This document shows positions 20,140 through 41,575 of a stretch of DNA of 64,000 bases, piece after piece; the stretch's first letter is position 1; the number at the start of each line of letters is the position of its first letter. Under the pieces are notes generated by a model. That model searched no databases and was not told the origin of the DNA. It saw only the letters and a program-made list of their open reading frames with translations. A program made the translations under genes and the position numbers. This stretch comes from Thermaerobacter subterraneus DSM 13965 (GTDB lineage Bacteria; Bacillota; Sulfobacillia; Thermaerobacterales; Thermaerobacteraceae): positions 2,419,837 through 2,483,836 of the forward strand of contig NZ_JH976535.1 of the NCBI RefSeq assembly GCF_000183545.2. The letters are read 5' to 3'.

Positions 20140-21027
20140 TTACCGCAAGAAGTCCATCAGGGTGGGCTGGACGATACGGGCACCGGCCATCAGCGCCGCC
20201 CGGTACGCCGCCTGGGACACCGACAGGCGCATGGCCGTTTCGGCGATGTCCGCATCCTCTACGCCGCTCAGCAGCTGCTCGGTGTCGACGCGGATCTCGT
20301 CCATGCGGTAAAGACCCAGCTCGATTCGGTTCACCTTGGCCCCCACCTCGGCGCGGAACCGCAGCAGGCCGTCCAGTGCCTGGTCGAGAGCCGCGATCCC
20401 GGTTGCGGATACGGCCTGCAGGTCCCGATTCTGAAGGGCCACCTGCAACCCGCTCAGGGCCGCGAAAGCCGGGTCGAACGCGGCGTCCCCGGGCACGTTG
20501 ATGGTCAGGGTGGTGCCGGGCGCCACCTCCCGCTGGATGGGCCCGTTGATTCCCTGATAGGTGACGCCGCTGGGACTGGCCGGATCGGCCACGAAGGGCG
20601 GTTGCTGCGTCCCGAAACCGCCAAACAGGTAGCTGTCGCCCAGGGTGCTGTTGGCCACCTCCAGCAGGTGGTCCTGCAACTGCTGGACCTCGGCCTGGAT
20701 GGCCTGGAGGGAGCTGTCCGGCAGGGTACCCGAAGCCGCCCGGACCGCCAGCTCCCGCGCCCGCTGGAGGATCTGGGTCGCCCGGTCCAGGGCGCTGTCG
20801 GTCATCTCGAGCCAGTCCCGGGCATCCTGGGCGTTGGCCCGCAGGCGTTCCACCTCGGCCAGGCGCGCCCGCAGGCGCAGGCTGTCCACGGTGGCTACGG
20901 GATCGTCCGAAGGGCGCTGCACCCGCTTGCCCGAAGCCAGCTGGTTCTGAAAGGTGCTCAGCCGCTGCTGAGCCCGGCGCAGGTCGGCCAGCAGGGTGGT
21001 GATCATCATTCCGCCGGTGATGCGCAC
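20140..21027 (-). CDS. flgL: Flagellar hook-filament junction protein 3
   Basis: A 295-residue FlgL (HAP3), the adaptor between FlgK and flagellin. The N-terminal coiled-coil (RRAQQRLSTFQNQLASGKRVQRPSDDP) and C-terminal helix (DADIAETAMRLSVSQAAYRAALMAGARI) match the flagellin-like D0/D1 domains, with a short central domain. GTG 21027 follows GGAGGGAG at good spacing. It is last in the flgM-flgN-flgK-flgL operon, 39 bases after flgK. In Bacillus, fliW and csrA follow; neither is present here. Confidence 0.93.
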   Translation of the reverse strand: MRITGGMMITTLLADLRRAQQRLSTFQNQLASGKRVQRPSDDPVATVDSLRLRARLAEVERLRANAQDARDWLEMTDSALDRATQILQRARELAVRAASGTLPDSSLQAIQAEVQQLQDHLLEVANSTLGDSYLFGGFGTQQPPFVADPASPSGVTYQGINGPIQREVAPGTTLTINVPGDAAFDPAFAALSGLQVALQNRDLQAVSATGIAALDQALDGLLRFRAEVGAKVNRIELGLYRMDEIRVDTEQLLSGVEDADIAETAMRLSVSQAAYRAALMAGARIVQPTLMDFLR

Positions 21028-21066
21028 CCGTGCTCCCTCCTGTGAGCAGCCCTCGAGGACGCCGCC

Positions 21067-22668
21067 TCAACGACCCACCAGGCCCGTCCGCTCGATGAGG
21101 ACGGCCAGCATGGAGTCCACCGCCGTCACCAGCCGGGCCGCCGCCGCGTAGGCGTGCTGGTACCGGACCAGCTGCGTCATCTCCTCGTCCAGGGAAACGC
21201 CTCGCACGCTCTCCCGCTGGGCCGCCACCTGATCCATGAGCAGTTGGGTGGTGCGCTGGCCTTCCTGGGCCTGGCGCCCCGCGATGCCCAGCCCCGCTAC
21301 CACGCTCTCCAGGTAATCCTGGGCCGGCGCCCCGCCGGGCAGAGCCAGGGCGGCGTGGCGCAGCTGCGCCAGGGCCAAGGCATTGCGCCCGTCTCCGGGC
21401 GCACCGGCCTCCAGGGCCGCTGCCAGGTTGGCCGGATCGTCCAGGGCGGGATTGACCACCACCGCCTGCAGGTCGGTCCCCGTCCCCAGCAGGAACATGT
21501 CCCGGCCTGCCCCGCCGCCCTGGGAGCCGGGAGCGGGGGCGTCGTTGAGCCCGTACCCCTGCCGGTGGACCTGGTTGACGGCCGTGGCCAGCGCGAAAAA
21601 GAGCGCCTTCAGATCCTGCCGCAAGCCCGCCACCAGCCGGTCCCGCGACTCGAGAAAGCCGTCGATCTCGCCGCCCTCCAGCACCGTGTCGTCCAGGGGC
21701 AGGAGGGCGGGTCCGGCCCCGGTGCCGGCACCCGGCTCACCGGCCAAGGCACCCGTCCCGGTACCCTCCGCCAGGACCTGGGCCGTTCCCGACCAGTAGA
21801 TCCGGACCACCAGGTCGCCGGCACCCGGATCGCCGGGGGCCGGCCCCCCGCCCGGGCTGCCGGCGCCACCGGTGCCGGCGCCGGTGGCCGCGACCGGTTC
21901 TTCCCGGACCACCAGCAGGTGGACGACCCGGCCGTCCACCAGGGGCAGCCCGGCCACCTCGACCCGCAGGGCGCCGCCCTCCCGTTCCGTCACCCGGACC
22001 GGCAGCAGGCCGCCCAGCTCCTCCACCAGCCGGTCCCGTTCATCCAGCAGGTCGTTGGGCGACTGCCCCGCTGCGGTGGCGACCTGGATGCGGCGGTGGA
22101 GGTCGGCCAGCTGGGTGGCGATCTGGTTGGCACGGTCGACCCGGGCCAGGATGCTGGCGTCCAGGTTGCGCTGGAGGTCCGCCAGCTGGCGGTCCGCCTC
22201 CTGAAAGCGTTCCAGCAGGGTATGGGCCTGCTGAATGGCCGCCGTCCGGGCCGGCAGGCTGTCAGGACGGTTCGCCACGACCCCCAGGGCCTCCCAGAAG
22301 TCGGCGAGGGCCCGGGCCAAGCCGGCGTCGGATGGTTCGCCCAGGATGGTCTCCAACTCCGCCAGGGTCTGGGTGCGAACCTGCCAGCGTCCCAGCTGCC
22401 CCTGCAAGTCCCGCACCTGCCGGTCGAGGAACAGGTCCCGGACCCGCTGGATCCCGGCCACCTGCACCCCGGTCCCCACCTGGCCGGCTTCCACCGCCAT
22501 GGCCCGGGAGGGTGGCGCGTAGGCAGGCGTGGGCGCCAGGCGCGCCACTTGCCGGGAGTAACCGGGGGTGTTGGCGTTGGCGATGTTGTGCCCGGTCACA
22601 TCCAGGGCTCGCTGCTGGGCCCAGAGGCCGAGCCGGGCCAGTTCGAGTCCGAAGAAGGTGCTGCGCAC
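21067..22668 (-). CDS. flgK: Flagellar hook-filament junction protein 1
   Basis: A 533-residue FlgK (HAP1), first junction protein at the hook tip. The N-terminus (FFGLELARLGLWAQQRALDVTGHNIANANTPGYSRQ) carries the rod/hook family motif, and the C-terminus (VSLDEEMTQLVRYQHAYAAAARLVTAVD) the conserved HAP1 end. A Gly/Ala/Pro-rich insertion at about residues 255-320 (repeated GTGAG motifs) is probably surface-exposed and lineage-specific. GTG 22668 follows AAAGGATGATG. Confidence 0.95.
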   Translation of the reverse strand: MRSTFFGLELARLGLWAQQRALDVTGHNIANANTPGYSRQVARLAPTPAYAPPSRAMAVEAGQVGTGVQVAGIQRVRDLFLDRQVRDLQGQLGRWQVRTQTLAELETILGEPSDAGLARALADFWEALGVVANRPDSLPARTAAIQQAHTLLERFQEADRQLADLQRNLDASILARVDRANQIATQLADLHRRIQVATAAGQSPNDLLDERDRLVEELGGLLPVRVTEREGGALRVEVAGLPLVDGRVVHLLVVREEPVAATGAGTGGAGSPGGGPAPGDPGAGDLVVRIYWSGTAQVLAEGTGTGALAGEPGAGTGAGPALLPLDDTVLEGGEIDGFLESRDRLVAGLRQDLKALFFALATAVNQVHRQGYGLNDAPAPGSQGGGAGRDMFLLGTGTDLQAVVVNPALDDPANLAAALEAGAPGDGRNALALAQLRHAALALPGGAPAQDYLESVVAGLGIAGRQAQEGQRTTQLLMDQVAAQRESVRGVSLDEEMTQLVRYQHAYAAAARLVTAVDSMLAVLIERTGLVGR

Positions 22669-22728
22669 GGGGGCATCATCCTTTGACCCTTGAAACGCCT
22701 AAACACCTAAATGCCTAACATAAGAAGC

Positions 22729-24741: not shown

Positions 24742-26412
24742 TCACGCGTGCTCGCGGCGGTACCGCTCCCGGTGGTGGCGCTTTTCGCGGTACATGTTGC
24801 GGTCGGCGGCGGCGATGAGGTCTTCATCGGAGGGGCCGTCATAGGGGTACACGGCGACCCCCAGGCTGAAACGGAGGGGGAAGAAGATCTGGCCCGAGAG
24901 GTCGGTGAAACGGTACCTCAGGGCGGCTTCCCGGATGCGGTCGGCCACCGCTTCGGCCTCTTCCCGGCGGGCACCGGGCAGGATGGCGACGAACTCGTCG
25001 CCCGCATACCGGGCAACCAGGTCCTGCTGGCGTACCGAATGCCGCAAAAGGTCGGCGAACTGCCGCAGGACGTGATCGCCGTCCCGGTGGCCGAACTGGT
25101 TGTTGATGTCGGAAAAGTTGTCCAGGTCGATCAGGATCAGCGCCAGGGGCTGGCCCGTAGCACTGGCCCGCCGCACCGCCTCCCGCAGGCGCATGCTGAA
25201 GAACCGGTAGTTGTAGAGGCCCGTCATCGGGTCGGTGTGGGCCATGGTCTGGGTCCGGCCATAGATCAGGCCGTTCTGGATGGCCATGGCCATTGGCGAC
25301 GCGAGGATGGACAGCAGGCGCCGCTCGCGATCGCCAAAGGCCCGGTGGCGCCGGGCCAGGCACAGGCAGCCCATGAGCCGCTCGTCGGCCGAGAGGGGCA
25401 CCGCCAGCACGCTGGACGGCTCGAAGTTCTCCGTCACCAGGGTGGGCTCGTCCACGTGCTCGACAAGCTGGCGCTCCCTGGCGGCCCGCCGGACAGCCCC
25501 CTCCCCTGCCACCCGGCCCTGAACCTCCCCGGCATCGGGATGGACCGCATGCTGCAGGCGCAGCACGTCGCCCTCCTCCGCCAGGTAGACGGCGAAGGCG
25601 TCCGACGGTGCCAGCTGCTGCACGGCCCGGTCGATCCAGCCGAAGGCATCGTCCAGTTCCAGCACGCAAGCCAGTCCCTTGGTGATCTCATACAGCGACT
25701 GCAGGTCGTGGTGGGCCTCCACCAGCCGCATGTGCAGGCGGAGCAGGTAGTTGATCATCAGGAAGAGGGTCAGGCCCACGGCCATGCCGATTTCACCGTA
25801 CGCCTGAAAGGCGATCATCACCACCGAATGGGCGGCCACGGCGAAGGCGGTGCTGAGGGCATCCACCGGCAACCAGCGGAAGAACAGGCGGAGGAACTCC
25901 CGGGTGGGATGGGCCTGGTGATAGTAAAGGGCCAGGCCCACCAGGGCATTGTTCATCACCCAGTAGATCGCCACATAAACAAAGACCAGGTGGAGCGGCG
26001 GAACGGTGATCCCCGTGGGCGCGGGCCAGGGATGGAGGCCGAGCCGCGTCGAAACGGCCCCTGCCGTCAGGATGGTCAGGGCGAACTGGCCGGCGTTGAA
26101 CAGGGTGCGGTCCCAAGGCCGGCGGTTCAGCACCCCGTAGCCGATGAGGTTGCCCAGCACGTTGATGATGGCCGCGGGCACGGTACCGTACAGCAACTGG
26201 GCCGTGAGGGTGACCCCGAAAGTCAGCGACATCGCCCCGCCGCCGGGCATCGGCAGCGGGTAGGCGTCCATCAGGACGGCCGCGGCCAGCATCATCAACA
26301 TGGGCAGGGCGGGAACGGGCTCCCACTGGCGCAAGGCCAGGATCAGAGCCACCATCCCGCCCACACCGACGGCCAGGATATACACCCGCTGCGGGCTACG
26401 CCAGGACCTCAC
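24742..26412 (-). CDS. Membrane-bound GAF-GGDEF diguanylate cyclase
   Basis: A 556-residue protein: seven to eight membrane helices (residues 8-215), a GAF-like domain (about 230-375, LVTENFEPSSVLAVPLSADERLMG) and a GGDEF domain (385-545). The active site is AGDEF instead of GGDEF, a variant known in active cyclases; the product-inhibition I-site RQQD lies exactly five residues before it, and DNFSDINNQFGHRDGD is intact. It should make cyclic-di-GMP, opposing the HD-GYP protein at 14.6-16.0 kb. It lies between comF and a glycosyltransferase-like gene. GTG 26412 has only a weak GGTGGGGGT site. Confidence 0.9.
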   Translation of the reverse strand: MRSWRSPQRVYILAVGVGGMVALILALRQWEPVPALPMLMMLAAAVLMDAYPLPMPGGGAMSLTFGVTLTAQLLYGTVPAAIINVLGNLIGYGVLNRRPWDRTLFNAGQFALTILTAGAVSTRLGLHPWPAPTGITVPPLHLVFVYVAIYWVMNNALVGLALYYHQAHPTREFLRLFFRWLPVDALSTAFAVAAHSVVMIAFQAYGEIGMAVGLTLFLMINYLLRLHMRLVEAHHDLQSLYEITKGLACVLELDDAFGWIDRAVQQLAPSDAFAVYLAEEGDVLRLQHAVHPDAGEVQGRVAGEGAVRRAARERQLVEHVDEPTLVTENFEPSSVLAVPLSADERLMGCLCLARRHRAFGDRERRLLSILASPMAMAIQNGLIYGRTQTMAHTDPMTGLYNYRFFSMRLREAVRRASATGQPLALILIDLDNFSDINNQFGHRDGDHVLRQFADLLRHSVRQQDLVARYAGDEFVAILPGARREEAEAVADRIREAALRYRFTDLSGQIFFPLRFSLGVAVYPYDGPSDEDLIAAADRNMYREKRHHRERYRREHA

Positions 26413-39528: not shown

Positions 39529-40356
39529 TCAGGAGCGCAACCGGTTGATCAGGCTCAGCATCTCATCGCCTGTGAGCACGGCGCGGGCGTTGAGCTGGTA
39601 CGCCCGCTGGGACGCCAGCAGCCGGGTCATCTCCAGGGCCAGGTCCACATTGGACTGCTCCAGCATCCCCTGCCGGATCCACCCCGCTCCGTCCTGGCCG
39701 GGCGCCCCGGCCGGCACCGGGTTGCCGCCCAGGGCGTACAGGCCCTCGCCGCGGCTTTCCAGGGCATCGGGCGCCGGCGGGACCATCACCGCCAGCCGCC
39801 CGGCGGGCACCTCGCGACCCCCGGCCAGGAGGGCCCGTACCTCTCCGTCCGGCGATACCACCCAGCCGCGGGATCCCGCCGGGAGCAGGAGGGGCTGGCC
39901 GCCGGCCGCCAGCAGCGGCCGCCCCGCGCCGTCGGTCACAAGAAGCGCTTCGCCGGCCTCCCCACCGCCGGGGACGCCGGCGGGTACGGGGCTGGCCGCA
40001 AAGGTCCCGCCCCGCGTCAGGAGGACCTCGCCGGTGCCGGGATCGGCCACCTGCAAGAAGCCTGCACCCTCGATGGCCAGGTCCCAGGGGGAACCCGTGG
40101 CCTGCAACGGACCCTGGCTCCACAACCGGGGTGTGGCCGCCAGGCGGACGCCGTGTCCAACCTGGACGCCTCCCGCCGCGGCGGCAGGAGGCGCCACCGG
40201 CACCTGGGCCGCGGCGTAAACCAGATCGGCAAAGTCCGCCCGGGCGGCCTTGAAGCCCGGGGTACTCACGTTGGCCAGGTTGCCGGCGGTGAGATCAACC
40301 TGCCGGGCCGCGGCCGCCATGCCCGCGGCGGACGACCAGAGGGCCCGCTGGATCAT
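39529..40356 (-). CDS. flhP: Flagellar hook-basal body protein FlhP/FlgG type
   Basis: A 275-residue rod-type protein. It has the N-terminal rod motif (ALWSSAAGMAAAARQVDLTAGNLANVSTPGFKAARADF), a central domain (AIEGAGFLQVADPGTGEVLLTRGG) and the C-terminal rod/hook motif (QGMLEQSNVDLALEMTRLLASQRAYQLNARAV). In Bacillus, flhO and flhP follow mbl and encode basal-body rod components. ATG 40356 overlaps the flhO stop (ATGA). Confidence 0.9.
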   Translation of the reverse strand: MIQRALWSSAAGMAAAARQVDLTAGNLANVSTPGFKAARADFADLVYAAAQVPVAPPAAAAGGVQVGHGVRLAATPRLWSQGPLQATGSPWDLAIEGAGFLQVADPGTGEVLLTRGGTFAASPVPAGVPGGGEAGEALLVTDGAGRPLLAAGGQPLLLPAGSRGWVVSPDGEVRALLAGGREVPAGRLAVMVPPAPDALESRGEGLYALGGNPVPAGAPGQDGAGWIRQGMLEQSNVDLALEMTRLLASQRAYQLNARAVLTGDEMLSLINRLRS

Positions 40357-41102
40357 GTGACCCGCCCCACTTCCTGGATGGCCAGCCCCAGCGTCTGATC
40401 CTGGGCCTGGACGGCCCGCTGGGCGGCCTCGAAGGCGCGGAAGTTGGCCAGCATGGCGACCACCACCTGCACCGGGTCGACGTTGGACTGCTCCAACACC
40501 CCCTGGCGCACGGGCGTGGCCGCCGGTACGGCGGGACCGGACTCGGCCGTTGCCTGCCACAGGTTGTCGCCCACCCGCCGCAGGCCGGCGGGGTTGGCGA
40601 AGGTGACCCGGGCGATGGTGCCCAGGACCGCGTCCCCCACCACCACCTGGCCGTCGGGCCGGACGGTGAACTGGGCGCTACCCACCAGCAGCGGCTGGCC
40701 CGTGGTGTCCAGGACGGGCGAGCCGTCGGGTGCCTGGAGGTACCCCTGGGACCCCACGGTGAAGTTGCCGGCCCGGGTGTAGGCCGGGCCGCCGGGGCCC
40801 ATCACCACGAAAAAGCCGTCCCCCTCCAGGGCCAGGTCCTGCGGTCGCCCGGTGGTGACCCAGGGTCCGGGCCGCATGTCGGCGCCCGGTTCGGCCACTA
40901 CCGTACCCGTGCCCAGGGGCCCCACCACCGGGGCTCCCGTCCCGTCGAGCCGCGACAGCAGGAGCTCGGGAAATGCCTCGGTCACGTTGCGGCTCGCTTT
41001 GTACCCGGGCGTGTTGACGTTGGCCAGGTCGCCCGCCAGGCGCTCCTGCTGGAGCACCCGGGCCAGCATGCCGCTGGCCGCGGTGTAAAGACCTCGCAGC
41101 AC
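40353..41102 (-). CDS. flhO: Flagellar hook-basal body protein FlhO/FlgG type
   Basis: A 249-residue FlgG/FlgF-family rod protein: N-terminal LYTAASGMLARVLQQERLAGDLANVNTPGYKASRN, central DLALEGDGFFVVMGPGGPAYTRAGNFTVG, C-terminal QGVLEQSNVDPVQVVVAMLANFRAFEAAQRAVQ. It starts at GTG 41102 with GGAAGGGGTG upstream and is coupled to flhP. Its leader of over 380 bases contains a cyclic-di-GMP-I riboswitch and a terminator hairpin, so expression of this pair probably answers to cyclic-di-GMP. Confidence 0.9.
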   Translation of the reverse strand: MLRGLYTAASGMLARVLQQERLAGDLANVNTPGYKASRNVTEAFPELLLSRLDGTGAPVVGPLGTGTVVAEPGADMRPGPWVTTGRPQDLALEGDGFFVVMGPGGPAYTRAGNFTVGSQGYLQAPDGSPVLDTTGQPLLVGSAQFTVRPDGQVVVGDAVLGTIARVTFANPAGLRRVGDNLWQATAESGPAVPAATPVRQGVLEQSNVDPVQVVVAMLANFRAFEAAQRAVQAQDQTLGLAIQEVGRVT

Positions 41103-41219
41103 CGGATCACCCCTTCCGCCACGCCAGACCCCGCGATCGCCCCGCCCCGCCGGCTGGCCGTCCCGCAGCATGCAACCGCCGCCCGCCGCCGGAGATGCAG
41201 CCGGCCGTGAAACACGAAA

Positions 41220-41239
41220 CCCCCGGCGGCAACCGGGGG
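41220..41239 (-). terminator. Terminator hairpin in the flhO leader
   Basis: CCCCCGG pairs with CCGGGGG around six bases, followed by TTTCGTGTTT on the minus strand. It lies downstream of the riboswitch aptamer and 120 bases before flhO, so it may be the expression platform; it could also end the mbl transcript. Confidence 0.65.
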
Positions 41240-41477
41240 TGGAACATCCTGGCCCCGCGCCGGGTTCGGCGGGCGAACCCGGCGGCAGATCCCTTCCACC
41301 CGTTCGGCAGCCCGGCCGTCATGGCCGGCGGGAGGGGCTGGAACACCTCGCTGCAGGAACCGGCCCGGCTGCTCTCCGGAACCGGAGCCGGGCCGGGGCT
41401 GGCGCCTCCGTACCGTTCTAGCGCCAGGTTCTCTGTCCCGGGAACCTGGCCCGACTCCCGCATTCCGGTGCGCGCCG

Positions 41478-41575
41478 GGCGAGGCGTCCCTCCGTCCCGC
41501 CGTGCGGTAGACCCGTGGCTTTGCGCCCCCGCCTTTCGGCGGGTTTGCCTTTATCGCGGCGTGGTCACGTGCCGT
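41478..41575 (-). ncRNA. Cyclic-di-GMP-I (GEMM) riboswitch upstream of flhO
   Basis: The minus strand carries the ordered core of the GEMM-I aptamer: AAAGGCAAACC (to 41542), hairpin CCCGCC-GAAA-GGCGGG with the GNRA loop (41543-41528), GCGCAAAGCC (around 41526-41517) and CGGGTCT (41515-41509). These are the same blocks, order and spacing as the Vibrio Vc2 aptamer (GGCAAACC ... GAAA ... GCAAAGCC). The 3' closing strand is less obvious; a CCGC-ACG-GCGG hairpin follows. It lies about 380 bases before flhO. Confidence 0.8.

Follow-up and report, generated by a model that had tools for sequence, protein, structure and literature searches.

A predicted cyclic-di-GMP-I riboswitch with a 187-nt insertion in P3 upstream of the flagellar rod genes flhO-flhP of Thermaerobacter subterraneus

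In C. difficile, the class I cyclic-di-GMP (c-di-GMP) riboswitches, including the one preceding the flgB operon, are OFF switches that act by termination, and class I switches of ON sign as well as non-terminating ones also exist (PMC6366702). Here, we describe a class I aptamer whose helix P3 is interrupted by 187 nt, a stretch that mostly measures ~15 to 25 nt in the aptamers of other genomes, located in the leader of flhO-flhP of Thermaerobacter subterraneus DSM 13965. In the open-licence papers that we searched, nothing was found on such inserts or on a riboswitch preceding flhO. Our overall explanation of the locus, to which we assign a probability of about 0.68, is a c-di-GMP-I riboswitch that carries a self-folding insertion of 187 nt in P3 and that would turn flhO-flhP OFF by termination, through exchange of a strand between P1 and an antiterminator.

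An Rfam covariance scan of the 64-kb stretch of DNA analysed here (the window) returned a single match above threshold, to the c-di-GMP-I family RF01051 at positions 41503-41559(-), with 46.8 bits against a gathering threshold of 35 bits (E = 5.2e-6, computed for the 64-kb window). The blocks follow each other on the minus strand as an earlier note on this DNA had proposed, with GGCAAACC from 41549, the GAAA-capped P2 at 41543-41528, GCAAAGCC and GGGTCTA ending at 41508, and the class assignment made in that note stands as well. The match is 57 nt long, compared with 87 positions in the model, and lacks the 3' strand of P3, so that the GGGTCT block, which had been counted among the core blocks, is present but is merely the 5' strand of that helix. 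The clan competitor RF03167 (c-di-GMP-I-GGC) scores 46.2 bits, below its own gathering threshold of 59, a score lowered by the same unreached 3' half, and P3 within its cmscan alignment is a spurious mini-stem with mismatches. Judged by its sequence, the feature is a riboswitch of the c-di-GMP-I (GEMM-I) family, a previously known class, with an exceptionally expanded P3, and not a new kind.

The missing 3' half lies downstream of the match. Searching with the family 3'-half pattern (Gac-AG-CcggGcU-gCCgaa), we found GACGGCCGGGCTGCCGAA at 41320-41303(-) without mismatch, as the sole match in the window even with two mismatches allowed (chance expectation, 0.03), and by direct reading it restores 10 of 10 P3 pairs with AGCC(A)CGG-GTC at 41520-41510. 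A complete P3 with a 3' half ending in GCCGAA is obtained only when 41320-41303 is included; the interval 41478-41575, given earlier as the aptamer, contains neither this strand nor a complete P1 and does not hold as a boundary. The RF01051 score clears the threshold, and the concern voiced beforehand over a missing closing stem was apt, with P3 being completed, and P1 possibly closed, 187 nt downstream. The whole aptamer would span about 41564-41296(-) (Table 1). P1 can form seven pairs with one bulge and its CGGGTGG strand is invariant, yet its pairing energy is not above background for such base composition. In the minimum-energy structure predicted for the complete leader, the canonical P3 does not appear, though neither ligand nor tertiary contacts enter into such predictions.

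Table 1. Coordinates of the riboswitch, its predicted expression platform and the genes downstream, as positions in the window
Feature	Position	Strand	Evidence
P1 5' strand CCAC(G)CCG, pairing with 41302-41296	41557..41564	minus	Direct reading and duplex fold
Aptamer 5' half: junction, P2 (41543-41528), GCAAAGCC, P3 5' strand (41520-41510)	41508..41559	minus	RF01051, 46.8 bits; 95-98% identity between genus lineages
187-nt insertion, apical part of P3, folding back on itself	41321..41507	minus	Fold z -4.5; 28-52% identity between lineages; single genome copy
Aptamer 3' half: P3 3' strand (41320-41309) and conserved GCCGAA	41303..41320	minus	Exact match, 0.03 expected; invariant in 4 genomes; Rfam-threaded in congener G001
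CGGGTGGAA: P1 3' strand, alternatively antiterminator strand (predicted)	41294..41302	minus	CGGGTGG invariant in 4 genomes; platform folds
10-bp hairpin between the two antiterminator strands	41259..41283	minus	Platform fold
TTCCACCC, complement of GGGTGGAA, overlapping the terminator 5' arm	41237..41244	minus	Duplex and platform folds, direct reading
Intrinsic-terminator-like hairpin, 9 pairs, followed by TTCGTGTTTC	41219..41240	minus	Hairpin detection; counterparts in 4/4 genomes
flhO, FlgF/FlgG-type basal-body rod gene, GTG start at 41102	40353..41102	minus	TIGR03506, Flg_bbr_C
flhP, FlgG-type rod gene, ATG at 40356, overlapping flhO in ATGA	39529..40356	minus	TIGR03506, Flg_bbr_C

With respect to conservation, we observe the split aptamer before flhO in all four Thermaerobacter genomes, with inserts of 62, 95, 187 and 190 nt and flhO orthologues that are 76 to 98% identical within the genus. 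The GAAA-capped P2 and the junction GGCAAACC / GCAAAGCC are present and identical in each of them. In comparisons between the three separate lineages, identity is highest in the 3' half taken together with the P1 strand (100%) and in the 5' half (95 to 98%), followed by the terminator (79 to 86%), the linker (38 to 52%) and the insert (28 to 52%). Conserved halves around a diverged insert are the pattern expected of one selected object with a free arm, and the riboswitch is very probably complete and under selection. RF01051 scores in Thermaerobacter congeners range from 39.1 to 46.8 bits, and in one congener (G001) the Rfam model itself threads positions 1 to 87 across the insert, setting 53 residues aside in the P3 loop. 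A decayed riboswitch, in which the core persists but binding has been lost or impaired by the very large insert, might be read from the 46.8 bits (versus 73.6 for a canonical second copy in the same genome) and from the widely varying insert lengths. We consider this very improbable, since the halves are 95 to 100% conserved while flanks and insert are near random identity, a combination that a decayed element would not keep, and since the low score arises because the model fails to reach the 3' half.

The insert of T. subterraneus folds as one closed arm with its ends paired together (z = -4.5), and the shorter inserts of congeners also self-close, with z-scores of only -1.9 and -1.6. No part of it matches a known RNA at an Rfam gathering threshold; the sub-threshold matches inside it (L31-Actinobacteria, 19.7 bits; SorX, 14.2 bits) are far under the cut-off. 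At the sensitivity used, a repeat or mobile element was rejected, as there is one copy here and one in the nearest congener only. The altered tetraloop receptor (UACC for UAAG) was likewise rejected as a consequence of the insert, the variant being also found in aptamers of normal length (e.g., L022). We regard it as a long shot that the P3 arm of 62 to 190 nt is a second functional module, such as a pausing, temperature-sensing or protein-binding element; if it were, it would tune or gate the c-di-GMP response of distal-rod assembly in a thermophile.

Expanded P3 arms occur elsewhere, with the flhO-leader insert being the largest found and those outside the genus reaching at most 104 nt. When 154 genomes of the class were scanned for paired halves set 51 to 111 or 161 to 221 nt apart, only Thermaerobacter gave matches. 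Across the phylum, 398 sampled genomes yielded three other expanded cases with 53, 98 and 104 nt in P3, all of them single aptamers that score 68 to 77 bits with RF03167, their best-scoring family (L085-L087). The latter two, L086:1498-1661(-) and L087:1498-1667(-), belong to two other members of the phylum and are independent P3 expansions, the insert of L086 being low-complexity and repeat-like. Furthermore, a distant class member has a 111-nt c-di-GMP-I aptamer with an enlarged P3 before a FliM-like translation (L038:1501-1611(-)). Searched with a 5'-half pattern, other members of the class (L056-L061) showed no aptamer upstream of flhO. All split-half patterns were strict, and diverged cases would escape them. 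In the GTDB contig collection, where the scan may omit records near the window's own, 151 to 211 nt between halves gave seven loci, and all seven are ordinary tandem aptamers. This last result is what would favour a fusion, with the 5' half of one aptamer joined to the 3' half of a second and the inner halves lost, an account of origin that is compatible with function. Set against it are the inserts themselves, of which none of the four retains a relic of the inner halves and which self-close and range in length between 62 and 190 nt, and we hold a fusion to be highly improbable.

The hairpin that the earlier note had placed at 41220-41239, with a T-rich tail, is real at 41240-41219(-), with counterparts in all four genomes, and its T-tract is interrupted. 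GGGTGGAA (41301-41294) and TTCCACCC (41244-41237) can form a perfect duplex of 8 bp, and this antiterminator duplex falls within the best 1 to 8% of background placements, modestly above chance in GC-rich DNA. When the platform is cut before the terminator 3' arm, the antiterminator is predicted to fold in four of four genomes, and when the P1 strand is blocked, the terminator is predicted in four of four. In the proposed mechanism, the insert would fold as a closed arm joining the two P3 strands, and the ligand pocket would form as usual. Bound c-di-GMP would stabilise P1 (CCAC.CCG with CGGGTGG) and withhold GGGTGGAA, upon which the terminator would form and flhO-flhP would be OFF; without ligand, GGGTGGAA would pair with TTCCACCC and break the terminator 5' arm, so that transcription would continue (ON). 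As P1 and the antiterminator lie on one shared strand, an OFF arrangement is predicted, and as with the C. difficile switches the element probably turns the distal-rod genes OFF, a direction on which the earlier note is silent and a switch logic that is plausible rather than proven. It is unlikely, in our estimate, that a complete, ligand-binding split aptamer acts here as an ON switch, or through a different platform that controls translation of flhO instead of termination. Both signs and non-terminating modes do exist in class I, and the leader runs on for 117 nt from the terminator to the start codon; against these points stand the shared-strand OFF layout predicted in all four genomes and a terminator whose conservation exceeds that of both the linker and the sequence preceding the gene. 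We recognised no promoter in the leader region.

The downstream target named in the earlier note was borne out, with FlhO and FlhP both carrying TIGR03506 and Flg_bbr_C. The gene order at the locus is murA, spoIID, an M23 peptidase gene (spoIIQ-like), spoIIID, mbl, the riboswitch, flhO, flhP and fabZ (murA, spoIID and spoIIQ being named from reading translations), which we take to resemble the Bacillus arrangement. The second, canonical c-di-GMP-I aptamer of the genome (73.6 bits; L033:1501-1593(-)) lies between HslU-like and FlgB-like frames, also named from reading translations, and is followed by a 13-pair terminator-like hairpin with CTTTCTTTTC. This indicates that in Thermaerobacter the flgB unit and the distal-rod genes would both be under c-di-GMP. 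The genome encodes two GGDEF domains, one of them in the window at 24742-26412(-). The protein encoded there, a likely diguanylate cyclase, combines a hydrophobic N-terminal part with a GAF and a GGDEF domain and carries the motif AGDEF. Its gene lies just upstream of comF-like and flgK/flgL-like frames (21070-22698, 20143-21066), and congeners have a GGDEF gene at a similar distance from flhO. We found no EAL domain in the T. subterraneus genome, and none was found in three of four Thermaerobacter genomes despite GGDEF proteins; HD-GYP enzymes would probably stand in for EAL phosphodiesterases there.

These observations show that the core of a riboswitch can be preserved while an insertion inside it, ~10 times the usual loop length, evolves rapidly. 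Because library models report only half of a split aptamer, others of this kind may have been overlooked or annotated as truncated. In addition, T. marianensis is described as non-motile despite its flagellar genes (PMC3035304), and c-di-GMP repression at both the flgB and the flhO sites would be a testable explanation of this non-motility.

With RF01051, the locus shares the GAAA-looped P2, GGCAAACC and GCAAAGCC, both the sequence and the pairing of P3, the terminal GCCGAA, the flagellar target and a predicted terminator platform; it differs in the 187 nt that interrupt P3, where ~15 to 25 nt are usual, and in that the standard model covers the 5' half alone. It shares clan and a near-equal score (46.2 bits) with RF03167, a family that includes P3 inserts of 53 to 104 nt, but scores below the cut-off of 59, and its insert exceeds any found in that family. 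Like Cd1 (Cdi-1-3) of the C. difficile flgB operon, itself an OFF switch (PMC6366702), it is a class I element of a flagellar operon with a termination platform, which here is predicted. Unlike Cd1, which controls flgB and has its counterpart here in the L033 aptamer before flgB, the split aptamer precedes the distal-rod genes flhO-flhP.
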